Source of the DNA: Cladocopium goreaui
Lineage: Eukaryota; Sar; Dinophyceae; Suessiales; Symbiodiniaceae
NCBI GenBank assembly: GCA_947184155.2
Contig: CAMXCT020006568.1
Coordinates: 249,625-313,624 of the forward strand
Direction: 5' to 3'
DNA: 64,000 nucleotides
The notes below the pieces were generated by a model, which did not search any database, was not told the origin of the DNA, and saw only the letters and a list, made by a program, of their open reading frames with translations. The position numbers were made by a program, and so were the translations under genes. Shown one piece after another: positions 2,554-55,055 of the stretch. Within the stretch, counting starts at the first letter, position 1. Every line of letters starts with the position of its first letter.

Positions 2554-5271
2554 ATGACGGCAACTTCCACTGTGGACTTGCGGCGTTACTTCGAAACTCT
2601 CTACCGAGAGGGTGGGGAGTTCCAAAGTGAAGAGTACGAGGACAGCGAGGATTTCAATCATTCCTGGAAGCATCTTCGAACAGGCATCGTTGTATGGAAA
2701 GATGCCATTGATTTGTCAGCAAGGCCAGGTGCCAAGGCTTTCTTTCACTACACGGGGGAGCTGGCTTTCAGAAACATCACCGCCCTTGAGAAAGAAGCTG
2801 CAGAGGTATGGGCCTCACTCAAAACAGAGGGAGAAAGTGCAAACGCGTGGTGGGGGCGTGGTGTGTACAGCGTCCCTAAATCTCCCGACCGATGGGCAGA
2901 CCGAATGGAACTCTTAGATAACAATTTCCGAAACATGATGAAAAGAGATGTGGCACTTCATGGTGAAGAGCATGTGAAAAGAGAGTATCCACCACGTGCA
3001 TCGTTCTGCATTCCTTTGCTCATCGACCCAGAGAATGCCTACGACATTTCAGTGAGGCCAACGCCTGAGATGGAGGCAGCAGGAAAGCCACCGGGCACGA
3101 ATCTCGGCGGCAAGCTGTTGAATGAGCCCGGGCAGCCAGAGCGCTGCTGTGTGGTTCTCCGGGTGGCTGGGGAGGACGGCGTTGCCAATGCTCGAGCTCG
3201 CCTGTTAGATGCTCTGCGAGCACGCGAAGCGGCTGCTCAGATTCCTGGCCTCAAGATTGCCGCGAAAGCGCGTTTGGGGAACGCTCTGATGAAGCGAGGC
3301 TACTTCCCGGAAAGCAAGATCCTGCTAACAGATGTTCTGGAGGCCCGTGAGCGCACCCTCGGCGCCGAGCATCCTGACACATTGGCCTCAGTCAACAATT
3401 TGGCAACTTGCCTCACTGCCATGGGCCAGCTGAAAGATGCAGAAGTGCTGTACAGGAGAGCTTTGGAAGACCGTGAGCGCACCGTTGGTGCCGAGCATCC
3501 TTCCACATTGGCCTCAGTCAACAATTTGGCAACTTGCCTCACTGCCATGGGCCGGCTAAAAGATGCAGAAGTGCTCTACAGGAGAGCTTTGGAGGCCTGT
3601 GAGCGCACCCTCGGTGCCGAGCATCCTTCCACATTGCGCTCAGTCAACAATTTGGCGATTTGCTTCAGAAAGATGGGCCAGCTGAAAGATGCAGAAGCGC
3701 TCTACAGGAGAGCTTTGGAAGCCCAGGAGCGCACCCACGGTGCCGAGCATCCTGACACATTGGTCTCAGTCCACAATTTGGCAACTTGCCTCCAAGCGAG
3801 GGGCCAGCTGAAAGATGCAGAAGTGCTGTACAGGAGAGCTTTGGAGGCGCGTGAGTGCTCCCTCAGTGCCGAGCATCCTTCCACATTGGGCTCAGTCAAC
3901 AATTTGGCAAATTGCCTCACAGCCATGGGCCGGCTGAAAGATGCAGAAGTGCTGTACAGGAGAGCTTTGGAGGCCCGTGAGCGCACCCTCGGTGCCGAGC
4001 ATCCTGGCACGTTGGGCTCGGTCGACGGTTTGGCGATGTGCCTGAGAGACATGGGCCAGCTGAAAGATGCAGAAGTGCTCTCTAGGAGAGCTTTGGATGC
4101 CCGTGAGCGCACCTTCGGTGCCGAGCATCCTGACGCATTGGCCTCAGTCAACAATTTGGCAATTTGCCTCGAAGCCATGGGCCAGCTGACAGATGCAGAA
4201 GCGCTCTACAGGAGAGCTTTGGAGGCCCAGCAGCGCACCCTCGGTGCCGAGCATCCTTCCACATTGGGCTCAGTCAACAATTTGGCAAGGTGCCTCCAAG
4301 CTAGGGGCCAGCGGAAAGATGCAGAAGTGCTCTACAGGAGAGCTTTGGAGGCCCAGCAGCGCACCCTCGGTGCCGAGCATCCTTCCACATTGGACTCACT
4401 CAACAACTTGGCAAGGTGCCTCCAAGCCATGGGCCAGCTGAAAGATGCAGAAGTGCTCTCTAGGAGAGCTTTGGAGGCCCGTGAGCGCACCTTCGGTGCC
4501 GAGCATCGTTCCACATTAATCTCAGTCCACAATTTGGCAGGTTGCCTCCAAGATAGGGGCCAGCTGAAAGATGCAGAAGTGCTGTACAGGAGAGCTTTGG
4601 AGGCCCAGCAGCGCACCCTCGGCGCCGAGCATCCTCACACATTGTGCTCAGTCAACAGTTTGGCAACTTGCCTCGGCCAGACGGGCCGGCTGAAAAATGC
4701 AGAAGTGCTCTACAGAGCTGTGGAGGCCCAGGAGCGCACCCTCGGTGCCGAGCATCCTGAGACATTGGGCTCAGTCAACAATTTGGCATTTTGCCTCAGA
4801 GCCATGGGCCAGCTGAAAGATGCAGAAGCGCTCTACAGGAGAGCTTTGGAGGCCCGTGAGCGCACCCTCGGTGCCGAGCATCCTTCCACATTGGGCTCAG
4901 TCAACAATTTGGCATTTTGCCTCAGAGCCATGGGCCAGCTGAAAGATGCAGAAGCGCTCTACAGGAGAGCTTTGGAGGCCCAGGAGCGCACCCTCGGTGT
5001 CGAGCATCCTTCCACACTGGTCTCAGTCAAAAATTTGGCAAATTGCCTCAGTGAGATGGGCCAGCTGAAAGATGCAGAAGTGCTCTACAGGAGAGCTTTG
5101 GAGGCCAAGGAGCGCACCCTCGGTGCCCAGCATCCTTCCACATTGCGCTCAGTCAACAATTTGGCGATTTGCCGCAGAGCCATGGGCCAGCGGAAGCGCT
5201 CTACAGGAGAGCTTTGGAATTGCCTGAACGGATTAGCTAGCAAATGCCTCAGCTTGGCCTTATTTCGGTAA
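2554..5271 (+). CDS. ART-like N-terminal domain plus 15 TPRs (copy 1, 905 aa)
   Basis: Intact, intronless ORF. Residues 1-255 are the family N-terminal domain. It has F64-H65-Y66-T67 and, about 35 residues later, G101-R-G103-V-Y105 followed by a Pro-rich turn; this order resembles the HYD1-type ADP-ribosyltransferase fold, but function is inferred only. From about residue 260 there are 15 TPR units of 42 residues (one is a residue short), the KLC-like class that forms a protein-binding superhelix. No signal peptide or membrane segment is seen, so it is probably cytosolic. The start is the ATG conserved in all copies after the common leader. The last unit has a net 10-bp deletion that shifts the frame, giving a tail with KRSTGELWNCLNG in place of the usual YRRALE end; copy 8 shares this. 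The tail stops at the TAA ending at 5271. Confidence 0.85.
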   Translation: MTATSTVDLRRYFETLYREGGEFQSEEYEDSEDFNHSWKHLRTGIVVWKDAIDLSARPGAKAFFHYTGELAFRNITALEKEAAEVWASLKTEGESANAWWGRGVYSVPKSPDRWADRMELLDNNFRNMMKRDVALHGEEHVKREYPPRASFCIPLLIDPENAYDISVRPTPEMEAAGKPPGTNLGGKLLNEPGQPERCCVVLRVAGEDGVANARARLLDALRAREAAAQIPGLKIAAKARLGNALMKRGYFPESKILLTDVLEARERTLGAEHPDTLASVNNLATCLTAMGQLKDAEVLYRRALEDRERTVGAEHPSTLASVNNLATCLTAMGRLKDAEVLYRRALEACERTLGAEHPSTLRSVNNLAICFRKMGQLKDAEALYRRALEAQERTHGAEHPDTLVSVHNLATCLQARGQLKDAEVLYRRALEARECSLSAEHPSTLGSVNNLANCLTAMGRLKDAEVLYRRALEARERTLGAEHPGTLGSVDGLAMCLRDMGQLKDAEVLSRRALDARERTFGAEHPDALASVNNLAICLEAMGQLTDAEALYRRALEAQQRTLGAEHPSTLGSVNNLARCLQARGQRKDAEVLYRRALEAQQRTLGAEHPSTLDSLNNLARCLQAMGQLKDAEVLSRRALEARERTFGAEHRSTLISVHNLAGCLQDRGQLKDAEVLYRRALEAQQRTLGAEHPHTLCSVNSLATCLGQTGRLKNAEVLYRAVEAQERTLGAEHPETLGSVNNLAFCLRAMGQLKDAEALYRRALEARERTLGAEHPSTLGSVNNLAFCLRAMGQLKDAEALYRRALEAQERTLGVEHPSTLVSVKNLANCLSEMGQLKDAEVLYRRALEAKERTLGAQHPSTLRSVNNLAICRRAMGQRKRSTGELWNCLNGLASKCLSLALFR

Positions 5272-11474: not shown

Positions 11475-13148
11475 ATGACGGCAACTTCCACTGTGGACTT
11501 GCGGTGTTACTTCGAAACTCTCTACCGAGAGGGTGGGGAGTTCCAAAGTGAAGAGTACGAGGGCAGCAAGGATTTCGATCATTCCTGGAAGCATCTTCGA
11601 ACAGGCATCGTTGTATGGAAAGATGCCATTGATTTGTCAGCAAGGCCAGGTGCCAAGGCTTTCTTCCACTACACCGGGGAGCTGGCTTTCAGAAACATCA
11701 CCGCCCTTGAGAAAGAAGCTGCAGAGGTATGGGCCTCACTCAAAACAGAGGGAGAAAGTGCAAACGCCTGGTGGGGGCGCGGTGTGTACAGCGTCCCTAA
11801 ATCTCCCGACCGATGGGCAGACCAAATGGAACTCTTAGATAACAATTTCCGAAACATGATGAAAAGAGATGTGGCACTTCATGGTGAAGAGTATGTGAAA
11901 AGAGAGTATCCACCACGTGCATCGTTCTGCATTCCTTTGCTCATCGACCCAGAGAATGCCTACGACATTTCAGTGAGGCCAACGCCTGAGATGGAGGCAG
12001 CGGGAAAGCCACCGGGCATGAATCTCGGTGACAAGCTGTTGAATGAGCCCGGGCAGCCAGAGCGCTGCTGTGTGGTTCTCCGGGTGGCTGGGGAGGACGG
12101 CGTTGCTAATGCTCGAGCTCGCCTGTTAGATGCTCTGCGAGCACGCGAAGCAGCTGCTCAGAGCCCTGGCCTCAAGATTACCGCGAAAGCGCGCTTGGGG
12201 AATGCTCTGAGGCAGCGAGGATACTTCCCGGAAAGCAAGATCCTGCTAACAGATGTTCTGGAGGCCCGTGAGCGCACCCTCGGTGCCGAGCATCCTTCCA
12301 CATTGGATTCAGTCAACAATTTGGCAAATTGTCTCAGAGCCATGGGCCAGCTGAAAGATGCAGAAGTGCTCTACAGGAAAGCTTTGAAGGCCCGTGAGCG
12401 CAGCCTCGGTGCCGAGCATTTTGAGACATTGGGCTCAGTCAACAATTTGGCAATTTGTCTCATAGCCATGGGCCAGCTGAAAGATGCAGAAGCGCTCCAC
12501 AGGAGAGCTTTGGAGGCCTGTGAGCGCACCCTCAGTGCCGAGCATCCTTACACATTGGGCTCAGTCAGCAATTTGGCAAATTGCCTCAGACGCATGGGCC
12601 AGCTGAAAGATGCAGAAGTGCTCTTCAGGAGAGCTTTGGAGGCCTGTGAGCGCACCCTTGGTGCCGAGCATCCTTTCACATTGGGCTCAATCAACAATTT
12701 GGCAGATTGCCTCGAAGCCATGGGCCAGCTGAAAGATGCAGAAGTGCTCCACAGGAGAACTTTGGAGGCCAAGGAGCGCACCCTCGGTGCCGAGCATCCT
12801 TCCACATTAGTCTCAGTCAACAATTTGGCACTTTGCCTCAGAGCCATGGGCCAGCTGAAAGATGCAGAAATGCACCACAGGAGAGTTTTGGAGGTCCGTG
12901 AGCGCACCCTCGGTGCCGAGCATCCTGACGCATTGGGCTCAGTCAGCAATTTGGCAATTTGCCTCAGTGAGATGGGTCAGCTGCAAGATGCAGAAGCGCT
13001 CCACAGGAGAGCTTTGGAGGCCTGTGAGCGCACCCTCGGTGCCGAGCATCCTTCCACAGTGGACTCAGTCAACAATTGGGCACTTTGCCTCAGTGAGATG
13101 GGCCAGCTGAAAGATGCAGAAGCGCTCTACAGGAGAGCTTTGGAATAG
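11475..13148 (+). CDS. ART-like N-terminal domain plus 7 TPRs (copy 2, 557 aa)
   Basis: Intact ORF with the same N-terminal domain as copy 1 (over 95% similar by eye), including FFHYTGELAF and WWGRGVYSVP, then seven 42-residue TPR units and the standard YRRALE end with TAG. Variable TPR sites include rare residues: HFETL, HPYTL, HPFTL and SINN. The last units and the 3' flank match the partial gene at 1-318 almost exactly, so these two are a recent duplication. One visible difference is NNWA in place of NNLA in the last unit, a core Leu-to-Trp change that may disturb packing. The predicted role is a partner-binding scaffold linked to an ART-like domain; catalysis is unproven. Confidence 0.85.
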   Translation: MTATSTVDLRCYFETLYREGGEFQSEEYEGSKDFDHSWKHLRTGIVVWKDAIDLSARPGAKAFFHYTGELAFRNITALEKEAAEVWASLKTEGESANAWWGRGVYSVPKSPDRWADQMELLDNNFRNMMKRDVALHGEEYVKREYPPRASFCIPLLIDPENAYDISVRPTPEMEAAGKPPGMNLGDKLLNEPGQPERCCVVLRVAGEDGVANARARLLDALRAREAAAQSPGLKITAKARLGNALRQRGYFPESKILLTDVLEARERTLGAEHPSTLDSVNNLANCLRAMGQLKDAEVLYRKALKARERSLGAEHFETLGSVNNLAICLIAMGQLKDAEALHRRALEACERTLSAEHPYTLGSVSNLANCLRRMGQLKDAEVLFRRALEACERTLGAEHPFTLGSINNLADCLEAMGQLKDAEVLHRRTLEAKERTLGAEHPSTLVSVNNLALCLRAMGQLKDAEMHHRRVLEVRERTLGAEHPDALGSVSNLAICLSEMGQLQDAEALHRRALEACERTLGAEHPSTVDSVNNWALCLSEMGQLKDAEALYRRALE

Positions 13149-15989: not shown

Positions 15990-18674
15990 ATGACGGCAAC
16001 TTCCACTGTGGACGACATGCGGCGTTACTTCGAAACCTTCTACCGAGAGGGTGGGGTGTTCCAAAGTGAAGAGTACGAGGACAGCGAGGATTTCGATCAT
16101 TCCTGGAAGCATCTTCGAACAGGCATCGTTGTGTGGAAAGATGCCATTGATTTGTCAGCAAGGCCAGGTGCCAAGGCTTTCTTCCACTACACGGGGGAGC
16201 TGGCTTTCAGAAACATCACGGCCCTTGAGAAAGAAGCTGCAGAGGTATGGGCCTCACTGAAAACAGAAGGAGAAGGTGCAAACGCTTGGTGGGGGCGTGG
16301 TGTGTACAGCGTCCCTAAATCTCCCGACCGATGGGCAGACCGAATGGAACTCTTAGATAACAATTTCCGAAACATGATGAAAAGAGATGTGGCACTTCAT
16401 GGTGAAGAGTATGTGAAAAGAGAGTATCCACCACGTGCATCGTTCTGCATTCCTTTGCTCATCGACCCAGAGAATGCCTACGACATTTCAGTGAGGCCAA
16501 CGCCTGAGATGGAGGCAGCGGGAAAGCCACCGGGCACGAATCTCGGTGACAAGCTGTTGAATGAGCCCGGACAGCCAGAGCGCTGCTGTGTGGTTCTCCG
16601 GGTGGCTGGGGAGGACGGCGTTGCCAATGCTCGAGCTCGCCTGTTAGATGCTCTGCGAGCACGCGAAGCGGCTGCTCAGAGTCCTGGCCTCGAGATTGCT
16701 GCCAAAACGCGTTTGGGGGTTGCTCTGATGAAGCGAGGCTACTTCCCAGAGAGCAAGATCCTGCTGACCGACGTTCTGGAGGCCCGTGAGCGCACCCTCG
16801 GTGCCGAGCATCCTGCCACGTCACACTCAGTCAACAATTTGGCAGCTTGCATCCAAGCCATGGGCCAGCTGAAAGATGCAGAAGCGCTCTTCAGGAGAGT
16901 TTTGGAGGCCCGTGAGCGCACCCTCGGTGCCGAGCATCCTTCCACATTGGTCTCAGTCAGCAATTTGGCAGTTTGCCTCCAAGCTAGGGGCCAGCTGAAA
17001 GATGCAGAAGTGCTCCACAGGAGAGCTTTGGAGGCCGAGGAGCGCAGCCTCCGTGCCGAGCATCATGACACATTGGGCTCAGTCAACAATTTGGCAGAGT
17101 GCCTCAGAGCCATGGGCCAGCTGAAAGATGCAGAAGTGCTCCACAGGAGAGCTTTGGAGGCCCAGGAGCGCACCCTCGGTGCCGAGCATCCTTCCACATT
17201 GGTCTCAGTCAGCAATTTAGCAACTTGCCTCCAAACTAGGGGCCAGCTGAAAGATGCAGAAGTGCTCTACAGGAGAGCTTTGAAGGCCCAGGAGCGCACC
17301 CTCGGTGCCGAGCATCCTTCCACATTGGACTCAGTCAACAATTTGGCGATTTGCCTCAGAGACATGGGCCAGCTGAAAGATGCAGAAGTGTTCCACAGGA
17401 GAGCCTTGGAGGCCCGTGAGCGCACCCTCGGTGCCGAGCATCCTTCCACATTGGACTCAGTGACCAATTTCGCGATTTGCCTTGAAGCCATGGGCCAGCA
17501 GAAAGATGCAGAAGTGCTCCACAGGAGAGCCTTGGAGGCCCATGAACGCACCCTCGGTGTCGAGCATCCTGCCACATTGTGCTCAGTCAGCAATTTGGCA
17601 ATTTGTTTCTGTGAGATGGGCCAGCTGAAAGATGCAGAAGTGCTCTACAGGAGAGCTTTGGAGGCCAATGAGCGCACCCTCGGTGCCGAGCATCATGACA
17701 CATTGGGCTCAGTCAACAATTTGGCAGGGTGCCTCAGAGCCATGGGCCAGCTGAAAGATGCAGAAGTGCTCCACAGGAGAGCTTTGGAGGCCCAGGAGCG
17801 CACCCTCGGTGCCGAGCATCCTGACGCATTGGGCTCAGTCAACAATTTGGCAGAGTGCCTCAGAGCCATGGGCCAGCTGAAAGATGCAGAAGTGCTCCAC
17901 AGGAGAGTTTTGGAGGCCCGTGAGCGCACCCTCGGTGCCGAGCATCATGGCACATTGGGCTCAGTCAACAATTTGGCAGAGTGCCTCAGAGCCATGGGCC
18001 AGCTGAAAGATGCAGAAGTGCTCCACAGGAGAGCTTTGGAGGCTCATGAGCGCACCCTCGGTGTCGAGCATCCTTCCACACTGTGCTCAGTCAGCAATTT
18101 GGCAATTTGTTTCTGTGAGATGGGCCAGCTGAAAGATGCAGAAGTGCTCCACGGGAGAGCCTTGGAGGCCCGTGAACGCACCCTCGGTGTCGAGCATCCT
18201 GCCACATTGTGCTCAGTCAGCAATTTGGCAATTTGTTTCAGTGACACGGGCCAGCTGAAAGATGCAGAAGCGCTCCACAGGAGAGCTTTGGAGGCCCATG
18301 AGCGCACCCTCGGTGCCGAGCATCCTTCCACATTGGACTCAGTCAACAATTTGGCAGTTTGCCTCAGAGCCATGGGCCAGCTGAAAGATGCAGAAGTGTT
18401 CCACAGGAGAGCCTTGGAGGCCGGTGAGCGCACCCTCGGTGCCGAGCATCCTGACGCATTGTTCTCAGTCAACAATGTGGCAGTTTGCCTGGAAGCCATA
18501 GGCCAGCTGAAAGATGCAGAAGTGCTGTACAGGAGAGCTTTGGAGGCCCATGAGCGCACCCTCGGTGCCGAGCATCCTTCCACATTGCGCTCAGTCAAAA
18601 ATTTGGCAAATTGCCTCAGAAAGATGGGCCAGCTGAAAGATGCAGAAGCGCTCTACAGGAGAGCTTCGGAATAG
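15990..18674 (+). CDS. ART-like N-terminal domain plus 15 TPRs (copy 3, 894 aa)
   Basis: Intact ORF. The N-terminus reads STVDDMRRYF, one Asp longer than copies 1 and 2, so the HYT motif lies at 66-68. The N-terminal domain keeps FFHYTGELAF and WWGRGVYSVP. Fifteen TPR units follow and the standard YRRASE end. This copy has units not seen elsewhere in the window: HHDTL and HHGTL in place of HPSTL, and GVEHPATLCSV used repeatedly with ICFCEMG, suggesting local duplication of two- or three-unit blocks inside the gene. No membrane segment or signal peptide. Probably a cytosolic protein-binding scaffold; the enzymatic role is inferred from the N-terminal motifs. Confidence 0.85.
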   Translation: MTATSTVDDMRRYFETFYREGGVFQSEEYEDSEDFDHSWKHLRTGIVVWKDAIDLSARPGAKAFFHYTGELAFRNITALEKEAAEVWASLKTEGEGANAWWGRGVYSVPKSPDRWADRMELLDNNFRNMMKRDVALHGEEYVKREYPPRASFCIPLLIDPENAYDISVRPTPEMEAAGKPPGTNLGDKLLNEPGQPERCCVVLRVAGEDGVANARARLLDALRAREAAAQSPGLEIAAKTRLGVALMKRGYFPESKILLTDVLEARERTLGAEHPATSHSVNNLAACIQAMGQLKDAEALFRRVLEARERTLGAEHPSTLVSVSNLAVCLQARGQLKDAEVLHRRALEAEERSLRAEHHDTLGSVNNLAECLRAMGQLKDAEVLHRRALEAQERTLGAEHPSTLVSVSNLATCLQTRGQLKDAEVLYRRALKAQERTLGAEHPSTLDSVNNLAICLRDMGQLKDAEVFHRRALEARERTLGAEHPSTLDSVTNFAICLEAMGQQKDAEVLHRRALEAHERTLGVEHPATLCSVSNLAICFCEMGQLKDAEVLYRRALEANERTLGAEHHDTLGSVNNLAGCLRAMGQLKDAEVLHRRALEAQERTLGAEHPDALGSVNNLAECLRAMGQLKDAEVLHRRVLEARERTLGAEHHGTLGSVNNLAECLRAMGQLKDAEVLHRRALEAHERTLGVEHPSTLCSVSNLAICFCEMGQLKDAEVLHGRALEARERTLGVEHPATLCSVSNLAICFSDTGQLKDAEALHRRALEAHERTLGAEHPSTLDSVNNLAVCLRAMGQLKDAEVFHRRALEAGERTLGAEHPDALFSVNNVAVCLEAIGQLKDAEVLYRRALEAHERTLGAEHPSTLRSVKNLANCLRKMGQLKDAEALYRRASE

Positions 18675-24742: not shown

Positions 24743-25551
24743 ATGACGGCAACTTCCACTGTGGACGACTTGCGGCGTTACTTCGAAAGTTTCTACCGAG
24801 AGGGCGGGGAGTTCCAAAGTGAAGAGTACGAGGACAGCGAGGATTTCGATCATTCCTGGAAGCATCTTCGAACAGGCATCGTTGTGTGGAAAGATGCCAT
24901 TGATTTGTCAACAGGGCCAGGTGCCAAGGCCTTCTTTCACTACACGGGGGAGCTGGCTTTCAGAAACATCACGGCCCTTGAGAAAGAAGCTGCAGAGGTA
25001 TGGGCCTCACTCAAAACAGAGGGAGAAAGTGCAAACGCCTGGTGGGGGCGCGGTGTGTACAGCGTCCCCAAATCTCCCGACCAATGGGCAGACCAAATGG
25101 AACTCTTAGATAACAATTTCCGAAACATGATGAAGAGGGATGTGGCACTTCATGGTGAAGAGTATGTGAAAAGAGAGTATCCACCACGTGCATCGTTCTG
25201 CATTCCTTTGCTCATTGACCCAGAGAATGCCTACGACATTTCAGTGAGGCCAACGCCTGAGATGGAGGCAGCAGGAAAGCCACCGGGCACGAATCTCGGC
25301 GGCAAGCTGTTGAATGAGCCCGCGCAGCCAGAGCGCTGCTGTGTGGTTCTCCAGGAGAGCTTTGAAGGCCCAGGAGCGCACCCTCGGTGCCGAGCATCCT
25401 TCCACATTAAACTCAGTCGGCAATTTGGCGATTTGCCTCGAAGCCATGGGCCAGCTGCAAGATGCAGAAGTGCTCCACAGGAGAGCTTTGGAGGCCCGTG
25501 AGCGCACCCTCGGTGCCGAGCATCCTTCCACATTAAACTCAGTCGGCAATT
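24743..25551 (+). pseudogene. Copy 4, 5' part: N-terminal domain, frameshift, then interrupted TPRs
   Basis: The N-terminal domain is intact to about residue 203 (QPERCCVVL), including FFHYTGELAF and WWGRGVYSVP. DNA coding for the end of the domain and the first TPRs is missing: the sequence jumps from GTGGTTCTC to CAGGAGAGCTTTG, which lies inside a TPR unit, and the frame shifts. The original frame then reads non-TPR sequence to a stop at 25501; the TPR frame (from about 25350) has two units and reaches a TAA created at 25551-25553 by the insertion. Copy 5 has the same internal deletion, so that change came before the duplication. Possibly still expressed as a 252-residue N-terminal-domain protein. 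Confidence 0.8.
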
Positions 25552-28375: not shown

Positions 28376-28599
28376 GATTGGTCAGGCATCACTTGCTGGA
28401 ATTATTGGATTCTTTTGGGATGATTGGTATGATGTTTAGTCAGGCATGGTTCCCTTCAGTCATGCACGATTTTTGCAAAAATCCTATTTAGGCACGACCC
28501 CAAAATCCCAGCCCGGCAAATTCCGGCCCGGGCCCCAAATTCCGGCCCGCGCCCTGCAAATTCCGGCCCTGCGTTTTTCCAAAATCAGGCAAAACCAGT

Positions 28600-28885
28600 A
28601 AATCAGGTATTAAGTCAGGTGTAGTTACCTTTTAAGTCATTAAGGCTAGTCAGGCATGGTTCCAGTGGGTACCTTTTAATTGTGAAGGCTAGTCAGGCAT
28701 GGTTCCCTGAATTCAGGGGCATGGGTACCTTTTAATTATGAAGGCTAGTCAGGCATGGGTTCTGTTAAGTCAGGCGTGGGTGGGTACCTCTTAATTATGA
28801 AGGCTAGTCAGGCATGGTTCCCTTAAGTCGGGTGTGGTTACGCTTTAAGTCATGAAGGCTAGTCAGGCATGGGTACCTTTTAAGT
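28600..28885 (+). repeat. Roughly 56-bp minisatellite
   Basis: GCTAGTCAGGCATGG recurs at about 28646, 28688, 28744, 28802 and 28858, separated by GTACCTTTTAA-like spacers. It is preceded at about 28515-28570 by three AAATTCCGGCCC units. Confidence 0.65.
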
Positions 28886-29179
28886 GATGAAATCTGAATC
28901 AGGCGGAGCTCCTATTCTAAATGTGTTAAATGGAATTGTTCAGTGTGGAAAATCGATTTTTTGGCTGGTCTACGGGCAAACCCTGTGTCTTCCAATACCA
29001 TAGCGTGCTGATGTCGCTTGCCTGCATAATAGTTAAGGCCAAAGCTTAGGTCATCAGTGTGATCCTGAAACGGCGCCACGACCAAGAAGATGACATGTGT
29101 AAAATGGGCCCTGGATTAACAAAGGCTGACTAATGAATTTGGAGGATGCCACTAAAGTATGGCATGTAATCACTTTTGA

Positions 29180-29970
29180 GGAGCACTCTATGGCACGCAG
29201 CGCGCGCAGCCTGCTTTACGGTTTAGCGTTTGAAAGTTTTAGGTTTTGCCTCTATGGCACGCAGCGTTTGAAAGTTTAACCGTTTACCTCTATGGCAGGC
29301 TGTGCGCGCAGTACGCGTTACGGTTTAAAGTTTGAAAGTTTTTGGGTTTATGTGTGTGGCACGCAGTGCGCGCAGCGCGCATTAGGGTTTAGGGTTTGGA
29401 AGTTTTATAGTTTATTTTATTGCATGCAGCGTGCACAGCGTGGGTTGAACTTTAGGGTTTCGAAGTTTTAGGGTTAACCTCCATGACACGATGGTTTAGG
29501 GTTTGGAGATTTTAAGGGGTACTTCTATGGCACACAGCGCGCGCAGCGCGCGTTAGGGTTTAGGGTTTAGGGTTTGGAAATTTTAGGGTTTACCTCTATG
29601 ACACGAGAGTTTCAGGTTTGAAGATTTTAGGGTTTATTTCTATTGCACAAAGCGCGCGCAGCGCGCATTAGTGTTTAGGGTTTGAAGGTTTTAGGGTTTA
29701 TCTCTGGCACGCAGCGCGCACAGCACGCATTAGGGTTTAGGGTTTGGAAGTTTTAGGGTTTATTTTATTGCATGCAGCGCGCACACCGCGGGTTAAACTT
29801 TAGGGTTTGGAAGTTGCATAACACGATGGTTTAGGGTTTGGAAATTTTAGGGTTTACTTCTCTGGGACACAGCGCGCGCACCGCGCATTAGGGTTTAGGG
29901 TTTGGAAGTTTTAGGGTTTACTTTATTGCATGCAGCGCGCGCAGCGCGCATAGAGTTTAGGGTTTGGAAG
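29180..29970 (+). repeat. Telomere-like TTTAGGG and GCGCGC interstitial array
   Basis: Repeated TTAGGGTTTAGGGTTT runs alternate with CAGCGCGCGCAGCGCGC and TATGGCAC segments, in irregular units of about 60-115 bp. TTTAGGG is the plant- and dinoflagellate-type telomere repeat; here it is degenerate, mixed with other sequence and internal to the insertion, so it is an interstitial relic or telomere-derived satellite, not a chromosome end. Confidence 0.7.
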
Positions 29971-30455
29971 TTTTAGGGTTTCAAGGGTTCCAAGGTTCCA
30001 GTGTACCAGGGTCCCACGGTTTCAGGGTTCCAAGGTTTCCAGGGTTCCAGGGTTCCGGGGTTCCAAGGTTTCAGGGTTCCAGGGTTCCAGGGTACCAGGG
30101 TCCCACGGTTTCAGGGTTCCAAGGTTTCCAGGGTTCCAAGGGTTCCAATGGTTCCAGGGTTTCGGGGTTCCAGGATCCCAGCAGGGTGCCAGGTGTGCAG
30201 GGTTGCAGGGTTCCAAGGTTCCAGGGTTCCAAGGTTGCAGGGTTCCAGAATCCTTGAGGGTTCCAGGGTGCCAAGGTTCCAAGGTTTCAGGGTTTGACGG
30301 TCGGAGGGTTTGAACGTTTGAGGGTTTCAGGGTTCCAGGGTTCCGGGGTTCCAGGGTTCCAGGGTTCCGGGGTTCCAAGGTTTCAGGGTTCCAGGGTTCC
30401 AGGGTTCCAGGGTTCCGGGGTTCCAAGGTTTCAGGGTTCCAGGGTTCCAGGGTTC
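29965..30455 (+). repeat. GGGTTCCA-type short tandem array
   Basis: Units of 8-10 bases (GGGTTCCAG, AAGGTTCC, GGGTTTCA) over about 490 bp. It is open in several frames on both strands, giving low-complexity peptides rich in GFQGS or NPGTLEP; these are repeat shadows, not genes. It follows the telomere-like array directly, and GGGTT is common to both, so it may have arisen by drift of the telomere-like unit. Confidence 0.75.
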
Positions 30456-30536
30456 ATTCCGGATTTTGAAGGCTGCAAGTCCCCGCGAGCCAGCCCCAGC
30501 CCTAGAGATTGAAACCCAACAGGCCCTGCTGTTGGG

Positions 30537-30989
30537 AATTTGGCGATTTGCCTCGAAGCCATGGGCCAGCTGCAAGATGCAGAAGTGCTCCACAGGAGAG
30601 CTTTGGAGGCCCGTGAGCGCACCCTCGGTGCCGAGCATCCTTCCACATTGGACTCAGTCAACAATTTGGCGATTTGCCTCAAAAACATGGGCCAGCTGAA
30701 AGATGCAGAAGTGCTCCACAGGAGAGCTTTGGAGGCCCGTGAGCGCACCCTCGGTGCGGGGCATCCTGACACATTGGGCTCAGTCAACAATTTGGCAGTT
30801 TGCCTCAGAGCCATGGGCCAGCTGAAAGATGCAGAAGCGCTCTACAGGAGAGCTTTGGAGGCCCATGAGCGCACCCTCAGTGCCGAGCATCCTTCCACAT
30901 TGGCCACAGTCAACAATTTGGCAGAGTGCCTAAGAGCCATGGGCCAGCTGAAAGATGCAGAAGTGCTCTACAGGAGAGCTTCGGAATAG
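30537..30989 (+). pseudogene. Copy 4, 3' part: three TPRs after the insertion
   Basis: The TPR frame resumes at AAT TTG GCG exactly where it was cut at 25551. The units read LAICLEAMGQLQDAE, then HPSTLDSV, GHPDTLGSV (with AGH in place of AEH) and HPSTLATV, ending YRRASE and TAG. Without its 5' part it lacks a normal start. It matches the 3' half of copy 5 almost exactly. Confidence 0.85.
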
Positions 30990-33128: not shown

Positions 33129-34386
33129 ATGACGGCAACTTCCACTGTGGACGACTTGCGGCGTTACTTCGAAAGTTTCTACCGAGAGGGCGGGGAGTTC
33201 CAAAGTGAAGAGTACGAGGACAGCGAGGATTTCGATCATTCCTGGAAGCATCTTCGAACAGGCATCGTTGTGTGGAAAGATGCCATTGATTTGTCAGCAA
33301 GGCCAGGTGCCAAGGCTTTCTTCCACTACACGGGGGAGCTGGCTTTCAGAAACATCACGGCCCTTGAGAAAGAAGCTGCAGAGGTATGGGCCTCACTCAA
33401 AACAGAGGGAGAAAGTGCAAACGCCTGGTGGGGGCGCGGTGTGTACAGCGTCCCTAAATCTCCCGGCAAATGGGCAAACCAGATGGAACTCTTAGATAAC
33501 AATTTCCGAAACATGATGAAGAGGGATGTGGCACTTCATGGTGAAGAGTATGTGAAAAGAGAGTATCCACCACGTGCATCGTTCTGCATTCCTTTGCTCA
33601 TTGACCCAGAGAATGCCTACGACATTTCAGGGAGGCCAACGCCTGAGATGGAGGCAGCAGGAAAGCCACCGGGCACGAATCTCGGCGGCAAGCTGTTGAA
33701 TGAGCCCGCGCAGCCAGAGCGCTGCTCTGTGGTTCTCCAGGAGAGCTTTGAAGGCCCAGGAGCGCACCCTCGGTGCCGAGCATCCTTCCACATTAAACTC
33801 AGTCGGCAATTTGGCGATTTGCCTCGAAGCCATGGGCCAGCTGCAAGATGCAGAAGTGCTCCACAGGAGAGCTTTGGAGGCCCGTGAGCGCACCCTCGGT
33901 GCCGAGCATCCTTCCACATTAAACTCAGTCGGCAATTTGGCGATTTGCCTCGAAGCCATGGGCCAGCTGCAAGATGCAGAAGTGCTCCACAGGAGAGCTT
34001 TGGAGGCCCGTGAGCGCACCCTCGGTGCCGAGCATCCTTCCACATTGGACTCAGTCAACAATTTGGCGATTTGCCTCAAAAACATGGGCCAGCTGAAAGA
34101 TGCAGAAGTGCTCCACAGGAGAGCTTTGGAGGCCCGTGAGCGCACCCTCGGTGCCGAGCATCCTTCCACATTGGACTCAGTCAACAATTTGGCAGTTTGC
34201 CTCAGAGCCATGGGCCAGCTGAAAGATGCAGAAGCGCTCTACAGGAGAGCTTTGGAGGCCCATGAGCGCACCCTCAGTGCCGAGCATCCTTCCACATTGG
34301 CCACAGTCAACAATTTGGCAGAGTGCCTCAGAGCCATGGGCCAGCTGAAAGATGCAGAAGTGCTCTACAGGAGAGCTTCGGAATAG
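33129..34386 (+). pseudogene. Copy 5: N-terminal domain frameshifted from 5 TPRs
   Basis: The first frame (33129-33887, 252 aa) has the intact ART-like motifs FFHYTGELAF and WWGRGVYSVP up to QPERCSVVL, then runs out of the TPR frame after the join GTGGTTCTC/CAGGAGAGC. The TPR frame is open from about 33700 to 34386 with five units (NSVGN twice, DSVNN twice, ATVNN once) and the normal TAG. The frames differ by one base, so no single protein is encoded unless by frameshifting or splicing. The deletion is shared with copy 4. Residues SPGKWANQ differ from SPDRWADR of other copies. Either a decayed gene or a source of a short N-terminal-domain protein. Confidence 0.8.
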
Positions 34387-36521: not shown

Positions 36522-38669
36522 ATGACGGCAACTTCCACTGTGGACGACTTGCGGTGTTACTTCGAAACCTTCTACCGAGAGGGCGGGGAGTTCCAAAGTG
36601 AAGAGTACGAGGACAGCGAGGATTTCGATCATTCCTGGAAGCATCTTCGAACAGGCATCGTTGTGTGGAAAGATGCCATTGATTTGTCAGCAAGGCCAGG
36701 TGCCAAGGCTTTCTTCCACTACACGGGGGAGCTGGCTTTCAGAAACATCACGGCCCTTGAGAAAGAAGCTGCAGAGGTATGGGCCTCACTCAAAACAGAG
36801 GGAGAAAGTGCAAACGCCTGGTGGGGGCGCGGTGTGTACAGCGTCCCCAAATCTCCCGACCAATGGGCAGACCAAATGGAACTCTTAGATAACAATTTCA
36901 GAAATATGATGAGGCGAGATATGGCACTTCATGGTGAAGAGTATGTGAAAAGAGAGTATCCACCACGTGCATCGTTCTGCATTCCTTTGCTCATCGACCC
37001 AGAGAATGCCTGCGACATTTCAGTGAGGCCAACGCCTGAGATGGAGGCAGCGGGAAAGCCACCGGGCATGAATCTCGGTGACAAGCTGTTGAATGAGCCC
37101 GGGCAGCCAGAGCGCTGCTGTGTGGTTCTCCGGGTGGCTGGGGAGGACGGCGTTGCCAATGCTCGAGCTCGCCTGTTAGATGCTCTGCGAGCACGCGAAG
37201 CGGCTGCTCAGAGTCCTGGCCTCGAGATTGCTGCCAAAACGCGTTTGGGGGTTGCTCTGATGAAGCGAGGCTACTTTCCCGAGAGCAAGATCCTGTCAAC
37301 AAATGTTCTGGAGGCCCAGGAGCGCACCCTCGGTGCCGAGCATCCTTCCACATTGGCCTCAGTCCACAATTTGGCAGATTGCCTCAAAGCTAGGGGCCGG
37401 CTGAAAGATGCAGAAGCGCTCCACAGGAGAGCTTTGGAGGCCCGTGAGCGCACCCTCGGTGCCGAGCATCCTTCCACATTGGCCTCAGTCAACAATTTGG
37501 CAAATTGCCTCAAAGACATGGGCCAGCTGAAAGATGCAGAAGCGCTCTACAGGAGAGCTTTGGAGGCCCGTGAGCGCACCCTCGGTGCCGAGCATCCTGA
37601 CACATTGGGATCAGTCAACGATTTAGCAAATTGCCTCAGAGAGATGGGCCAGCTGAAAGATGCAGAAGCGCTCGACAGGAGAGCTTTGGAGGCCCGTGAG
37701 CGCACCCTCGGTGCCGAGCATCCTTCCACATTGGGCTCAGTCAACAATTTGGCAAATTGCTTCAGAGCCAGGGGCCAGCTGAAAGATGCAGAAGTGCTCT
37801 ACAGGAGAGCTTTGGAGGCCAAGGAGCGCACCCTCGGTGCCGAGCATCCTTCCACATTGTTCTCAGTCGGCAATTTGGCAGAGTGCCTCAGACAGATGGG
37901 CCAGCTGAAAGATGCAGAAGTGCTCCACAGGAGAGCTTTGGAGGCCCAGGAGCGCACCCTCGGTGCTGAGCATCCTTCCACATTGGGCTCAGTCAACAAT
38001 TTGGCGATTTGCTTCCGAGATAGGGGCCAGCTGAAAGATGCAGAAGTGCTCCACAGGAGAGCTTTGGAGGCCAACGAGCGCACCCTCGGTGCCGAGCATC
38101 CTTCCACATTGGGCTCAGTCAACAATTTGGCAGATTGCCTCAGTGAGATGGGCCAGCTGAAAGATGCAGAAGCGCTCTACAGGAGAGCTTTGGAGGCCCG
38201 TGAGCGCACCCTCGGTGCCGAGCATCCTTCCACATTGAGCTCAGTCGGCAATTTGGCGATTTGCCTCAGAGAGATGGGCCAGCTGAAAGATGGAGAAGCG
38301 CTCTACAGGAGAGCTTTGGGCACCCTCGGTGCCGAGCATCCTTCCACACTGCGCTCAGTCGGCAATTTGGCAGAGTGCCTCAGACAGATGGGCCAGCTGA
38401 AAGATGCAGAAGTGCTCCACAGGAGAGCTTTGGAGGCCGAGGAGCGCACCCTCGGTGCCGAGCATCCTTCCACATTGGGCTCAGTCAACAATTTGGCAAG
38501 GTGCCTCCAAGCTAGGGGCCAGCGGAAAGATGCAGAAGCGCTTTACAGGAGAGCTTTGGAGGCCCAGGAGCGCATCCTCGGTGCCGAGCATCCTGACACA
38601 TTGCGCTCAGGCAGCAATTTGGCAAATTGTCTCAGAGCCATGGGCCAGCTGAAAGATGCTTTGAAATAG
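36522..38669 (+). CDS. ART-like N-terminal domain plus 11 TPRs (copy 6, 715 aa)
   Basis: Intact ORF starting at the conserved ATG (STVDDLRCYF). The N-terminal domain keeps FFHYTGELAF and WWGRGVYSVP; it has ACDIS where others have AYDIS, and MMRRDMAL where others have MMKRDVAL. Eleven TPR units follow. One has lost several residues in helix B (YRRALGTLGAEHP), an in-frame shortening that would alter repeat packing. The end is abrupt, GQLKDALK and TAG, so the last helix is cut short. It is followed by a partial 3' flank and then an orphan TPR piece at 38854. Probably a partner-binding protein; activity of the N-terminal domain is inferred. Confidence 0.85.
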   Translation: MTATSTVDDLRCYFETFYREGGEFQSEEYEDSEDFDHSWKHLRTGIVVWKDAIDLSARPGAKAFFHYTGELAFRNITALEKEAAEVWASLKTEGESANAWWGRGVYSVPKSPDQWADQMELLDNNFRNMMRRDMALHGEEYVKREYPPRASFCIPLLIDPENACDISVRPTPEMEAAGKPPGMNLGDKLLNEPGQPERCCVVLRVAGEDGVANARARLLDALRAREAAAQSPGLEIAAKTRLGVALMKRGYFPESKILSTNVLEAQERTLGAEHPSTLASVHNLADCLKARGRLKDAEALHRRALEARERTLGAEHPSTLASVNNLANCLKDMGQLKDAEALYRRALEARERTLGAEHPDTLGSVNDLANCLREMGQLKDAEALDRRALEARERTLGAEHPSTLGSVNNLANCFRARGQLKDAEVLYRRALEAKERTLGAEHPSTLFSVGNLAECLRQMGQLKDAEVLHRRALEAQERTLGAEHPSTLGSVNNLAICFRDRGQLKDAEVLHRRALEANERTLGAEHPSTLGSVNNLADCLSEMGQLKDAEALYRRALEARERTLGAEHPSTLSSVGNLAICLREMGQLKDGEALYRRALGTLGAEHPSTLRSVGNLAECLRQMGQLKDAEVLHRRALEAEERTLGAEHPSTLGSVNNLARCLQARGQRKDAEALYRRALEAQERILGAEHPDTLRSGSNLANCLRAMGQLKDALK

Positions 38670-38853
38670 CCTGAACGGATTAGCCAGTAAATGCCTCAGT
38701 TTGGCCTTATTTTGCTAAAGTTTCACCATGGAAAAAGGTGATCCTGCGGTCGACCACCTCGCCACTGTCCTGACATGATATTTTGAATTTGAATTGCTTT
38801 AACATCATATCATGTCCTATAGTGAGAGTCAGAACCACCACAAGTGTCCATAA
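38670..38853 (+). repeat. Truncated family 3' flank after copy 6
   Basis: Matches the first roughly 180 bases of the normal gene 3' flank (CCTGAACGGATTAGCCAG to CACAAGTGTCCATAAGTG) and then stops inside the small-ORF region, joined directly to TPR-coding sequence. Confidence 0.7.
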
Positions 38854-39132
38854 GTGCTCCACAGGAGAGCTTTGGAGGCCCAGCAGCGCACCCTCGGTGC
38901 CGAGCATCCTGACACATTGGTCTCAGTCAACAGTTTGGCGATTTGGTTCAGACAGATGGGCCAGCTGAAAGATGCAGAAGTGCTCCACAGGAGAGCTTTG
39001 GAGGCCCAGGAGCGCACCCTTGGTGCCGAGCATCCTGACGCATTGGATTCAGTCAACAATTTGGCAGCTTGCCTCAGAGCCATGGGCCAGCTGAAAGATG
39101 CAGAAGCGCTCTACAGGAGAGCTTTGGAATAG
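38854..39132 (+). pseudogene. Orphan TPR fragment (2 TPRs) fused to a 3' flank
   Basis: The sequence changes from a 3' flank to the middle of a TPR unit at AAGTG/CTCCAC, where AAGTG is common to both parents (CATAAGTG in the flank, GCAGAAGTGCTCCAC in the TPR). The fragment reads LHRRALEAQQRTLGAEHPDTL and ends YRRALE and TAG; it includes an unusual AIWFRQMG. No N-terminal domain and no conserved start. It is the footprint of unequal, microhomology-driven recombination between array members. Confidence 0.75.
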
Positions 39133-41353: not shown

Positions 41354-42649
41354 ATGACGGCAACTTCCACTGTGGACTTGCGGCGTTACTTCGAAACTCT
41401 CTACCGAGAGGGTGGGGAGTTCCAAAGTGAAGAGTACGAGGACAGCGAGGATTTCAATCATTCCTGGAAGCATCTTCGAACAGGCATCGTTGTATGGAAA
41501 GATGCCATTGATTTGTCAGCAAGGCCAGGTGCCAAGGCTTTCTTCCACTACACGGGGGAGCTGGCTTTCAGAAACATCACGGCCCTTGAGAAAGAAGCTG
41601 CAGAGGTATGGGCCTCACTCAAAACAGAGGGAGAAAGTGCAAACGCCTGGTGGGGGCGTGGTGTGTACAGCGTCCCTAAATCTCCCGACAAATGGGCAAA
41701 CCAGATGGAACTCTTAGATAACAATTTTAGAAATATGATGAAGAGGGATGTGGCACTTCATGGTGAAGAGTATGTGAAAAGAGAGTATCCACCACGTGCA
41801 TCGTTCTGCATTCCTTTGCTCATTGACCCAGAGAATGCCTACGACATTTCAGTGAGGCCAACGCCTGAGATGGAGGCAGCAGGAAAGCCACCGGGCACGA
41901 ATCTCGGCGGCAAGCTGTTGAATGAGCCCGGGCAGCCAGAGCGCTGCTGTGTGGTTCTCCGGGTGGCTGGGGAGGACGGCGTTGCCAATGCTCGAGCTCG
42001 CCTCTTGGATGCTCTGCGAGCACGCGAAGCGGCTTCTCAGAGTCTTGGCCTCAAGATTGCTGCGAAAGCGCGTTTGGGGGATGCTCTGCGGATGCGCGGC
42101 TACTTCCCGGAAAGCAAGATCCTGCTAACAGATGTTCTGAAGGCCCGTGAGCACACCCTCGGTGCCGAGCATCCTGACACATTGGGCTCAGTCAACAGTT
42201 TGGCAGAGTGCCTCGGAGCCATGGGCCAGCTGAAAGATGCAGAAGCGCTCTACAGGAGAGCTTTGGAGGCCCGTGAGCGCACCCTCGGTGCCGAGCATCC
42301 TTCCACATTGCGCTCAGTCAACAATTTGGCAACTTGCCTCCAAACTAGGGGTCAGCTAAAAGATGCAGAAGTGCTCTACAGGAGAGCTTTGGAGGCCCAG
42401 GAGCGCACCTTCAGTGCCGAGCATCCTTCCACATTGGTCTCAGTCAGCAATTTGGCAGTTTGCCTCAAAGCCATGGGCCAGCTGAAAGATGCAGAAGTGC
42501 TTTACAGGAGAGCTTTGGAGGCCCAGGAGCGCACCCTCGGTGCCGAGCATCCTTCCACATTGGTCTCAGTCAGCAATTTGGCAATTTGCCTCGAAGCCAT
42601 GGGCCAGCTGAAAGATGCAGAAGTGCTCTACAGGAGAGCTTCGGAATAG
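41354..42649 (+). CDS. ART-like N-terminal domain plus 4 TPRs (copy 7, 431 aa)
   Basis: The shortest intact copy. The N-terminal domain is complete (FFHYTGELAF, WWGRGVYSVP) and is closest to copy 1 at its start (STVDLRRYFETLY, EDFNHSW), but it has SPDKWANQ as in copy 5's SPGKWANQ, suggesting gene conversion between neighbours. Four TPR units follow (HPDTLGSV, HPSTLRSV, HPSTLVSV twice) and the standard YRRASE end. It shows that a copy can be reduced to a few repeats without losing the frame. Role as for the family. Confidence 0.85.
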   Translation: MTATSTVDLRRYFETLYREGGEFQSEEYEDSEDFNHSWKHLRTGIVVWKDAIDLSARPGAKAFFHYTGELAFRNITALEKEAAEVWASLKTEGESANAWWGRGVYSVPKSPDKWANQMELLDNNFRNMMKRDVALHGEEYVKREYPPRASFCIPLLIDPENAYDISVRPTPEMEAAGKPPGTNLGGKLLNEPGQPERCCVVLRVAGEDGVANARARLLDALRAREAASQSLGLKIAAKARLGDALRMRGYFPESKILLTDVLKAREHTLGAEHPDTLGSVNSLAECLGAMGQLKDAEALYRRALEARERTLGAEHPSTLRSVNNLATCLQTRGQLKDAEVLYRRALEAQERTFSAEHPSTLVSVSNLAVCLKAMGQLKDAEVLYRRALEAQERTLGAEHPSTLVSVSNLAICLEAMGQLKDAEVLYRRASE

Positions 42650-49170: not shown

Positions 49171-51009
49171 ATGACGGCAACTTCCACTGTGGACTTGCGG
49201 CGTTACTTCGAAAGTTTCTACCGAGAGGGCGGGGAGTTCCAAAGTGAAGAGTACGAGGACAGCGAGGATTTCGATCATTCCTGGAAGCATCTTCGAACAG
49301 GCATCGTTGTGTGGAAAGATGCCATTGATTTGTCAACAGGGCCAGGTGCCAAGGCTTCCTTTCACTACACCGGGGAGCTGGCTTTCAGAAACATCACAGC
49401 CCTCGAGAAAGAAGCTGCAGAGGTATGGGCTTCACTGAGAACGGAGGGAGAAAGTGCAAACGCCTGGTGGGGGCGCGGTGTGTACAGCGTCCCTAAATCT
49501 CCCGACCGATGGGCAGACCGAATGGAACTCTTAGATAACAATTTCCGAAACATGATGAAAAGAGATGTGGCACTTCATGGTGAAGAGTATGTGAAAAGAG
49601 AGTATTCCCCACGTGCATCGTTCTGCATTCCTTTGCTCATCGACCCAGAGAATGCCTACGACATTTCAGTGAGGCGAACGCCTGAGATGGAGGCAGCGGG
49701 AAAGCCACCGGGCACGAATCTCGGTGACAAGCTGTTGAATGAGCCCGGGCAGCCAGAGCGCTGCTGTGTAGTTCTCCGGGTGGCTGGGGACGACGGTGTT
49801 GCCAGTGCTCGAGCTCGCCTGTTAGATGCTCTGCGAGCTCGCGAAGCGGCTGCTCAGAGTCCTGGCCTCAAGGTTGACGCAAAAGCGCGTTTGGGGAATG
49901 CTCTGCGGATGCGAGGCTACTTCCCGGAAAGCAAGATCCTGCTGACCAACGTTCTGGAGGCCCGTGAGCGCACCCTCGGTGCCCAGCATCCTTCCACATT
50001 GAGCTCAGTCAGCAATTTGGCAACTTGCCTCAGAGCCATGGGCCAGCTGAAAGATGCAGAAGTGCTCCACAGGAAAGCTTTGGAGGCCCGTGAGCGCACC
50101 CTCGGTGCCGAGCATCCTGTAACATTGGGCTCAGTCAGCAATTTGGCGATTTGCCTCGAAGCCATGGGCCAGCTGAAAGATGCAGAAGTGCTCTACAGGA
50201 GAGCTTTGGAGGCCTTTGAGCGCACCCTCGGTGCCGAGCATCCTTCCACATTGAGCTCAGTTGGCAATTTGGCAAATTGCCTCAGAGAGATGGGCCAGCT
50301 GAAAGATGCAGAGGTGCTCTACAGGAGAGCTTTGAAGGCCCAGGAGCGCACCCTCGGTGCCGAGCATCCTTCCACGTTGGCCTCAGTCCACAATTTGGCA
50401 ACTTGCCTCCAAGTTAGAGACCAGCGAAAAGATGCAGAAGTGCTCCACAGGAGAGCTTTGGAGGCCAAGGAGCGCACCCTCGGTGCCGAGCATCCTTCCA
50501 CATTGGGCTCAGTCAACAATTTGGCAAATTGTCTCAAAGCCATGGGCCAGCTGAAAGATGCAGAAGTGCTCTACAGGAGAGCTTTGGAAGCCCAGGAGCG
50601 CACCCTCGGTGCCGAGCATCCTTCCACATTGGCCTCAGTCTACAATTTGGCAACTTGCCTCCAAGCTAGGGGCCAGCTGAAAGATGCAGACGTGCTCCAC
50701 AGGAGAGCTTTGGAGGCCAAGGAGCGCACCCTCGGTGCCGAGCATCCTGGCACATTGCGCTCAGTCAACAATTTGGCAGATTGCCTCAGGGAGATGGGCC
50801 AGCTGAAAGATGCAGAAGTGCTGTACAGGAGAGCTTTGGAGGCCCAGGAGCAGACCCTCGGTGCCGAGCATCCTGACACATTGGTCTCAGTCAACAATTT
50901 GGCAGTTTGCCTCAGAGCCATGGGCCAGCCGAAGCGCTCTACAGGAGAGCTTTGGAATTGCCTGAACGGAATAGCCAGTAAATGCCTCAGCTTGTCTTTA
51001 TTTCGGTAA
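49171..51009 (+). CDS. ART-like N-terminal domain plus 8 TPRs (copy 8, 612 aa)
   Basis: Intact ORF and the last member of the array. The N-terminal domain begins STVDLRRYFESFY and keeps HYTGELAF and WWGRGVYSVP; it has KASFHYT where others have KAFFHYT, REYSPRA for REYPPRA, and VRRTPEM for VRPTPEM. Eight TPR units follow, including HPVTLGSV and SVYNLA, which appear only here in the window. The last unit carries the same kind of 10-bp loss as copy 1, giving the alternative tail KRSTGELWNCLNGIASKC and the TAA at the same position in the flank. Role as for the family. Confidence 0.85.
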   Translation: MTATSTVDLRRYFESFYREGGEFQSEEYEDSEDFDHSWKHLRTGIVVWKDAIDLSTGPGAKASFHYTGELAFRNITALEKEAAEVWASLRTEGESANAWWGRGVYSVPKSPDRWADRMELLDNNFRNMMKRDVALHGEEYVKREYSPRASFCIPLLIDPENAYDISVRRTPEMEAAGKPPGTNLGDKLLNEPGQPERCCVVLRVAGDDGVASARARLLDALRAREAAAQSPGLKVDAKARLGNALRMRGYFPESKILLTNVLEARERTLGAQHPSTLSSVSNLATCLRAMGQLKDAEVLHRKALEARERTLGAEHPVTLGSVSNLAICLEAMGQLKDAEVLYRRALEAFERTLGAEHPSTLSSVGNLANCLREMGQLKDAEVLYRRALKAQERTLGAEHPSTLASVHNLATCLQVRDQRKDAEVLHRRALEAKERTLGAEHPSTLGSVNNLANCLKAMGQLKDAEVLYRRALEAQERTLGAEHPSTLASVYNLATCLQARGQLKDADVLHRRALEAKERTLGAEHPGTLRSVNNLADCLREMGQLKDAEVLYRRALEAQEQTLGAEHPDTLVSVNNLAVCLRAMGQPKRSTGELWNCLNGIASKCLSLSLFR

Positions 51010-55050: not shown

Positions 55051-55055
55051 CGCTT

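Follow-up and report, generated by a model that had tools for sequence, protein, structure and literature searches.

What process leaves a protein repeat nearly invariant over most of its length and highly variable at a few codons? The question is raised by a cluster of tetratricopeptide repeat (TPR) genes in a 64,000-nucleotide stretch of DNA from Cladocopium goreaui (contig CAMXCT020006568.1, positions 249,625 to 313,624; hereafter the window). The plus strand of the window carries eight copies of one gene (G1 to G8) and, at the window start, the 3′ end of a ninth (G0). Every full copy starts with MTATSTVD and continues with an N-terminal part of ~270 residues, followed by 126-bp units of 42 residues each. 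A first-pass annotation had described one near-invariant repeat at 2554-51009, with hypervariable codons on one face of a TPR helix; the TPR family is there, but as eight separate gene copies with intervening DNA and not as one array. Diversification of the groove on a constant TPR scaffold is supported by codon statistics, predicted structure and published binding positions, and the cluster probably encodes, in tandem copies, a dinoflagellate family of recognition proteins whose arrays consist of 42-residue TPR units of the kinesin light chain type.

Scanning for units found 71 on the plus strand of the window and none on the minus strand. For codon counts, 61 in-register units with at least 105 of 126 bases as in the consensus were used (59 distinct), and 10 terminal, truncated or indel-bearing units were dropped. 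Units were numbered from the Pro of the His-Pro pair as 0. Amino-acid entropy was 1.8-3.1 bits at positions 1, 4, 7, 11, 14, 15 and 33, lower at positions 26 (1.46), 24 (0.98) and 16 (0.96), and at most 0.65 bits at all remaining positions. This agrees with the earlier description, in which positions 1, 4, 7, 11, 14 and 15 vary, the rest hardly change and a further variable site lies in helix B; position 33, in that helix, is as variable as the helix-A sites. Mean pairwise identity of units was 88% in the framework, 28% at variable positions and ~78% overall, and the 59 units held 57 distinct seven-residue words. Every codon that had been listed for positions 4 and 11 was present, and the remark that the third base stays C holds for positions 4 (57/59 units), 1 (56/59) and 7 (58/59) but not for 11, 14, 15 and 33, where it varies. 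Pfam families TPR_12 and TPR_10 scored above cut-off in all six open reading frames (ORFs) scanned (for G1, E = 4e-163 and 1e-144, respectively). With these profile matches, a 42-residue period and a two-helix repeat fold like that of kinesin light chain, the units belong with the 42PR / TPR_10-TPR_12 repeat proteins. Units per copy differ among paralogues, from 4 to 15.

Across the 59 distinct units, pairwise nonsynonymous diversity (pN) was 0.469 at the seven variable codons, while framework codons had a pN of 0.054 and a synonymous diversity (pS) of 0.088. The ratio of variable-codon pN to framework pS was 5.3 (about 4.4-7.2 in 60 bootstrap resamples of the units), so that silent variation did not equal that at the variable sites, as the first-pass annotation had expected of a diversified face. 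In the seven codons, the share of non-consensus bases was 27% at first, 42% at second and 18% at third codon positions, compared with 3.7%, 3.4% and 3.5% in framework codons. The N-terminal domain (195 codons, eight copies) had a pS of 0.090 and a pN of 0.021 and is under purifying selection. Per-site likelihood tests were performed with a purpose-written MG94-type model, with kappa fixed at 2 and the framework synonymous rate shared among sites. At the seven sites, beta/alpha was 3.8-8.2 on a tree of all codons and 6.2-20.6 on a tree of framework codons (all p < 3e-6 on both), while positions 26 (p = 2e-4) and 24 (p = 0.04) were significant on the all-codon tree only. On both trees, then, each of the seven sites tests as significantly positively selected. 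As a check that needs no tree, given that repeats recombine, 13 mutual nearest-neighbour pairs of units (one identical) were compared; they differed by 23 nonsynonymous and 1 synonymous codon changes at the seven codons, compared with 12 and 11 at the other 35 codons (Fisher p = 7e-4).

Two explanations that dispense with selection for new residues were weighed on these counts. Under relaxed constraint, groove residues would be free to drift while folding holds the scaffold, and diverged TPR relatives do have some of their highest variability at the same positions. Free drift should not outpace the silent rate, however, and pN at the seven codons is ~5x the silent levels of the framework and the N-terminal domain, with the excess also present in the nearest pairs; relaxed constraint was rejected and is given very little weight. 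Targeted mutagenesis, for example by a diversity-generating retroelement or a site-directed hypermutator, is favored by the NNC-like codon sets at positions 1, 4 and 7, by a pS of 0.207 at the seven codons as against 0.088 in the framework, and by the spectrum of changes relative to consensus (145 transitions and 218 transversions in variable codons, 159 and 60 in framework codons). Yet near-saturated selected sites also lower the share of transitions, a mutator would need to spare third bases at positions 1, 4 and 7, and an adenine-directed process would hit the 24 framework consensus adenines, which average 2.8% non-consensus. Adenine-directed mutagenesis, as at a diversity-generating retroelement target, was rejected on this near constancy, and targeted mutagenesis as a whole is scarcely credible.

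The structure of G7 (41354..42649; a continuous 431-amino acid ORF with 4 TPR units) was predicted using AlphaFold2. The TPR part was confident, with a block predicted local distance difference test score (pLDDT) of 85-96 from residue 261, and the N-terminal part was poor in that run. Helix A comprises positions 0-15 and helix B positions 19-37; in an example unit of this gene (42170..42295), His-Pro are positions -1 and 0 and the variable codons are 1, 4, 7, 11, 14, 15 and 33. On a 100-degree helical wheel, the six helix-A sites fell within a 140-degree arc (R = 0.50, permutation p = 0.011), in keeping with the claim that they share one face, and helix-B variability had no significant facing on the wheel (p = 0.31). 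In our alignment of NLA..CL..MG to the 34-residue TPR, positions 4, 7, 11, 14 and 15 correspond to canonical positions 2, 5, 9, 12 and 13, which have been published as variable and ligand-binding; five of the top seven variable positions are those five canonical sites (hypergeometric p = 2.5e-5). Position 8 (canonical 6) is Asn in 55/59 units, and published TPR positions 33 and 34 would by direct offset become unit positions 35 and 36, neither of which is variable here. Position 1 sits in the first turn, which is longer in the 42-residue unit, and position 33 lies on helix B. Predicted structure and published binding positions together back the proposal that the variable helix-A face lines the groove. 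This location bears on antigenic-type variation, in which the proteins would be targets or host-directed variable ligands that escape or match a partner such as an animal host. Escape from a binder would yield the same codon pattern, but the variation lies on the helix-A face lining the concave groove, where receptors vary, and the N-terminus MTATSTVDLRRYF looks cytosolic by eye; we consider antigenic-type variation quite improbable.

Differences within and between genes were compared for 53 units of six genes, with units of G0, G4 and G5 omitted. Framework third positions differed by 0.070 within and 0.068 between genes (permutation p = 0.69) and variable codons by 0.410 and 0.421 (p = 0.12); neighboring units were no closer than others (0.066 at framework third positions). 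Gene-specific homogenization was rejected, since units are equally unlike within and between genes. The suggestion of a homogenized scaffold therefore survives in part: the scaffold has changed little (pS 0.088), but homogenization is not specific to it, because the N-terminal domain is just as diverse at silent sites between copies (pS 0.090), and no homogenization is seen within genes. In G1 and in the related protein P0005, two consecutive units are identical letter for letter while their neighbors are different; two consecutive units of G5 (33781, 33907) are also identical, and one pair of G4 and G5 units differs at positions 1 and 4 only. Judged from these comparisons, the gene copies appear to draw on a common pool of units that are duplicated and passed between genes. 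Upstream DNA of the copies is of two types ~20% apart, one in G2, G4 and G8, the other in G1, G3, G5, G6 and G7. Coding N-terminal parts are 2-6% apart and do not track this split, which suggests that upstream and coding regions may have been exchanged between copies.

The best sequence matches of known structure were kinesin light chain TPR domains, which also head the list of fold matches (Z tied with LGN), and some Durusdinium and Cladocopium relatives are named 'Kinesin light chain' and 'Nephrocystin-3' at their source. Both observations favor an adaptor family, whose arrays would bind various endogenous partners and whose groove would have been diversified by division of labor among paralogues and not by conflict. 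On the other side, the near-unique words of the units, with no likeness within genes, exceed the needs of stable paralogue specialization, and the N-terminal part is modeled as mixed strands and helices. An adaptor family is on balance unlikely, although not negligibly so.

A protein search with the N-terminal region returned 58 relatives, 56 of them tagged PF26928, and a profile search among shorter proteins returned 114. Named sources were Durusdinium trenchii and Cladocopium goreaui in the first search and Prorocentrum cordatum in the profile search; among named matches, the N-terminal domain was found in dinoflagellates only. These names alone would place the window most likely in a dinoflagellate near Symbiodiniaceae. 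N-terminal relatives were absent from searches of phages, viral_contigs and genome_contigs, the last two of which began with short patterns and could miss distant ones. The 28 close relatives (P0001-P0029 minus P0004, which is nearly identical to G2), which come from 'ena' contigs and may include proteins of one species or genome, contained 135 units, 128 of them distinct. Their six most variable positions were 11, 4, 14, 1, 33 and 15; homologous proteins outside the window repeat the pattern of variable sites, position 7 excepted. Mean within-array identity was 0.68-0.87 in the 27 close relatives with at least two units versus 0.21-0.69 in 25 distant ones (P0041, P0052, P0057 and P0058 omitted; a loose threshold was used to call their units). 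Near-identical units are thus mainly a trait of the close group.

Recurrence of the pattern in proteins not encoded by the window argues against a decaying repeat cluster or an assembly artefact without protein function. That possibility is raised by the broken frames of G4, G5 and G6. It is opposed also by the five continuous ORFs of 431-905 amino acids, by purifying selection on the N-terminal domain, and by the short units at 4630 and 38223, whose lengths of 123 and 114 bp keep the frame; decay or artefact is accorded only a very small probability. In addition to G7, the continuous ORFs, all on the plus strand, are G1 (2554..5271, 905 amino acids; N-terminal domain, 14 scanned TPR units and a partial last one), G2 (11475..13148, 557 amino acids, 7 units), G3 (15990..18674, 894 amino acids, 15 units) and G8 (49171..51009, 612 amino acids, 7 scanned units and a partial last one). 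No introns are needed to read through these five (no search aimed at introns was made). The last, partial unit of G1 (5131-5271), of G8 (50869-51009) and of P0001 contains the same alternative C-terminus, RSTGELWNCLNG.ASKCLSL..FR; being common to all three, it is inherited and no random break.

Of the broken copies, also on the plus strand, G4 (24743..30985) loses its frame past the N-terminal domain, and its array is split by ~5 kb of repeat-rich DNA (~25.5-30.5 kb). In G5 (33129..34386), the N-terminal domain (33129-33887) and the array (33700-34386) are in differing frames, and in G6 (36522..39128) a 715-amino acid ORF (36522-38669) with 10 scanned units is followed past its stop by units at 38905 and 39031. 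P0062, an ENA protein, is a continuous-frame relative of the G4 and G5 arrays; its first unit differs from that of G4 at variable position 33. The fragment G0 (1..318, plus strand) is cut by the window start and holds the final TPR units of its gene (91, 217) and then a stop. The DNA inside the G4 array (25501-30536) contains many short tandem repeats, including TTTAGGG-containing units at 29.4-30.0 kb and a AGGGTTCC array at 29975-30455, which resemble telomere-type repeats. Outside the gene cluster, a 94-bp tandem repeat is present in nine copies at 54207-55052. Long minus-strand ORFs that cross the arrays at 18044-18598 and 33627-34211 are probably not genes and stay open because the 126-bp period is a multiple of three. 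The tandem layout of the family is ordinary, since many dinoflagellate genes sit in tandem arrays (review PMC11453091).

Aligned N-terminal parts share the motifs FHYT, ANAWWGxGxYTVP, LLDNNFRNMM, TPEM and LLNEPG. A model of this part had a pLDDT of 82.5, with mixed strands and helices and with residues 71-96 below 50; the match lists of fold searches with it, including Foldseek, were filled by its C-terminal TPR helices. Neither NACHT nor NB-ARC was found among the listed Pfam matches of the six ORFs (25 of 26 families for one ORF) or of the N-terminal part alone, and a nucleotide-binding oligomerization (NOD) domain was rejected on this basis. By eye, FHYT..WWGKGIY resembles the HG[ST]..GKGIY of PARP. 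When aligned to the PARP catalytic domain using hhalign, the N-terminal part gave a probability of 1.8% over 15 columns and a score of 21.7, compared with 10.6-19.4 for 20 column-shuffled controls, and it had no Pfam match to PARP. As that probability is no evidence of homology, a PARP-like effector was rejected as a finding and kept as a lead only. Searching the open-licence PubMed Central (PMC) literature for ADP-ribosyltransferase together with dinoflagellate and TPR found nothing.

Constant scaffolds with specificity residues at fixed positions, a few per repeat reading nucleic acid, are known from transcription activator-like (TAL) effectors, with two specificity residues per repeat, and from pentatricopeptide repeat proteins. 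No code or nucleic-acid ligand is known for the window family, and the comparison with TAL effectors made in the first-pass annotation, although sound in its constant-scaffold logic, is a weaker analogy than that with the repeats of fungal NOD-like receptor (NLR)-like proteins. PRDM9, a recombination protein with DNA-binding fingers, keeps its scaffold fixed and changes at contact residues only. Its zinc-finger array is alike in that the paralogous repeats have a mean ratio of nonsynonymous to synonymous substitution (dN/dS) above 1 (2.7; PMC5120217). The 42PR class, defined in Marold et al. 2015 as cited by PMC5642895, has 42-residue units and the same fold in the kinesin light chain TPR domain and in a Podospora repeat protein (PDB 4y6c/4y6w), and kinesin light chain is likewise described as having a conserved Pro that follows a mostly-His position (PMC5642895). 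Kinesin light chain has six TPR motifs, of which TPR5 and TPR6 are separated by a 40-residue non-TPR insertion (PMC5642895), and binds kinesin cargo, whereas the window ORFs have 4-15 near-identical units, no such insertion (five continuous ORFs) and an unrelated N-terminal domain.

Fungal NLR-like repeats (Podospora anserina Pa_2_10340; HNWD/het-d, het-e) resemble the window family in their near-identical repeats with few selected codons each, in the placing of selected sites on the concave or interaction face, in differing repeat number and in exchange within and between genes. In the Podospora TPR repeats, Dyrka et al. (PMC4986451) describe three positively selected positions, each of them on the concave side, together with repeat-number polymorphism and inferred recombination between repeats; the WD repeats of het-d and het-e are described as behaving alike (PMC12222747). 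As in the fungal type, groove codons of the window family test as positively selected (helix-B position 33 not placed), at seven sites per repeat versus three selected positions in the sole fungal TPR locus tested, and its ~78% mean pairwise unit identity stands beside a fungal threshold of 85% internal repeat identity by another measure. Fungal NLR-like proteins carry NACHT or NB-ARC, whereas Pfam found neither here, and the N-terminal part is a dinoflagellate one among named matches; because no NACHT or NB-ARC was found, the family is likened to the fungal receptors but not classed as one. A description of hypervariable groove codons in dinoflagellate TPR proteins was not found in titles and abstract openings of open-licence PMC papers or in the TPR passages of papers on dinoflagellates. 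The first-pass annotation knew of no described system of this form in dinoflagellates; the form itself has a precedent in fungal NLR-like proteins (PMC4986451). The literature on dinoflagellate genomes and coral symbiosis reports TPR domains as abundant or expanded in several dinoflagellate species. Varied TPR abundance has been linked in passing to host-symbiont recognition, with no mechanism given (PMC8045281), and the TPR passage of PMC4083563 concerns coral proteins only.

Sequence statistics show constraint on the N-terminal domain and the scaffold, positive selection at the residues lining the concave groove and at one helix-B site, and arrays of differing length, with duplication of units and their exchange among genes. 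In the recognition family that we favor, changing groove residues would select ligands and the N-terminal domain would deliver the output. Each array would form a modular groove with a ligand of its own, point changes and the shuffling of units would generate new specificities, and the common output part, either effector or signaling, would be the conserved N-terminal domain. By analogy with fungal NLR repeats, the most likely use would be intracellular non-self or allo-recognition, of viruses, bacteria or other cells. A more doubtful extension is a germline-encoded combinatorial intracellular recognition repertoire of a unicellular alga, in which NOD-less receptors would combine shuffled 42-residue TPR modules, near-unique seven-residue words and a dinoflagellate-only N-terminal output domain.

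Several observations weigh against a family of selected, shuffled recognition grooves. Support for its non-self role is by analogy, and three of the eight copies have broken frames. Tree-based tests presuppose an absence of recombination, which does occur between units; nor are unit pairs independent of one another. Positions 14, 15 and 33 drive up pS in the set of seven codons, and this rise leans toward a locally higher rate of change; path averaging in multiply changed codons likewise inflates pS. Diverged TPR relatives, too, vary most on this face, so the location of the sites is by itself no proof of selection. Position 7 had an entropy of 0.97 in the close set versus 1.81 in the window, and G2 and P0004 differ at 4/557 residues, 0 of them at the seven sites. 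All four gametes were present at 503/990 pairs of polymorphic sites, with no clear trend over distance; recurrent change at variable codons also yields four gametes, so these counts alone do not show free shuffling. Association was found for 6/45 pairs of variable positions (p ≤ 0.02, uncorrected), and shuffling is therefore incomplete.

What is new in the family is the combination of a dinoflagellate N-terminal domain with the absence of a NOD domain from its Pfam matches; the logic of selection on a groove is already known from the TPR, ankyrin and WD repeats of fungal NLRs. With seven codons defined in each unit, alleles can be surveyed and binding tested directly. If the reading is true, an immune- or allo-recognition-like system would exist for which no dinoflagellate description was found in searchable open-licence PMC papers. 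An alga in or close to the lineage of coral symbionts would maintain a set of recognition proteins that lack the NLR core yet evolve as the repeats of fungal NLRs do, and a single design, in which selected groove residues sit on a fixed repeat scaffold, would have been put to use independently.

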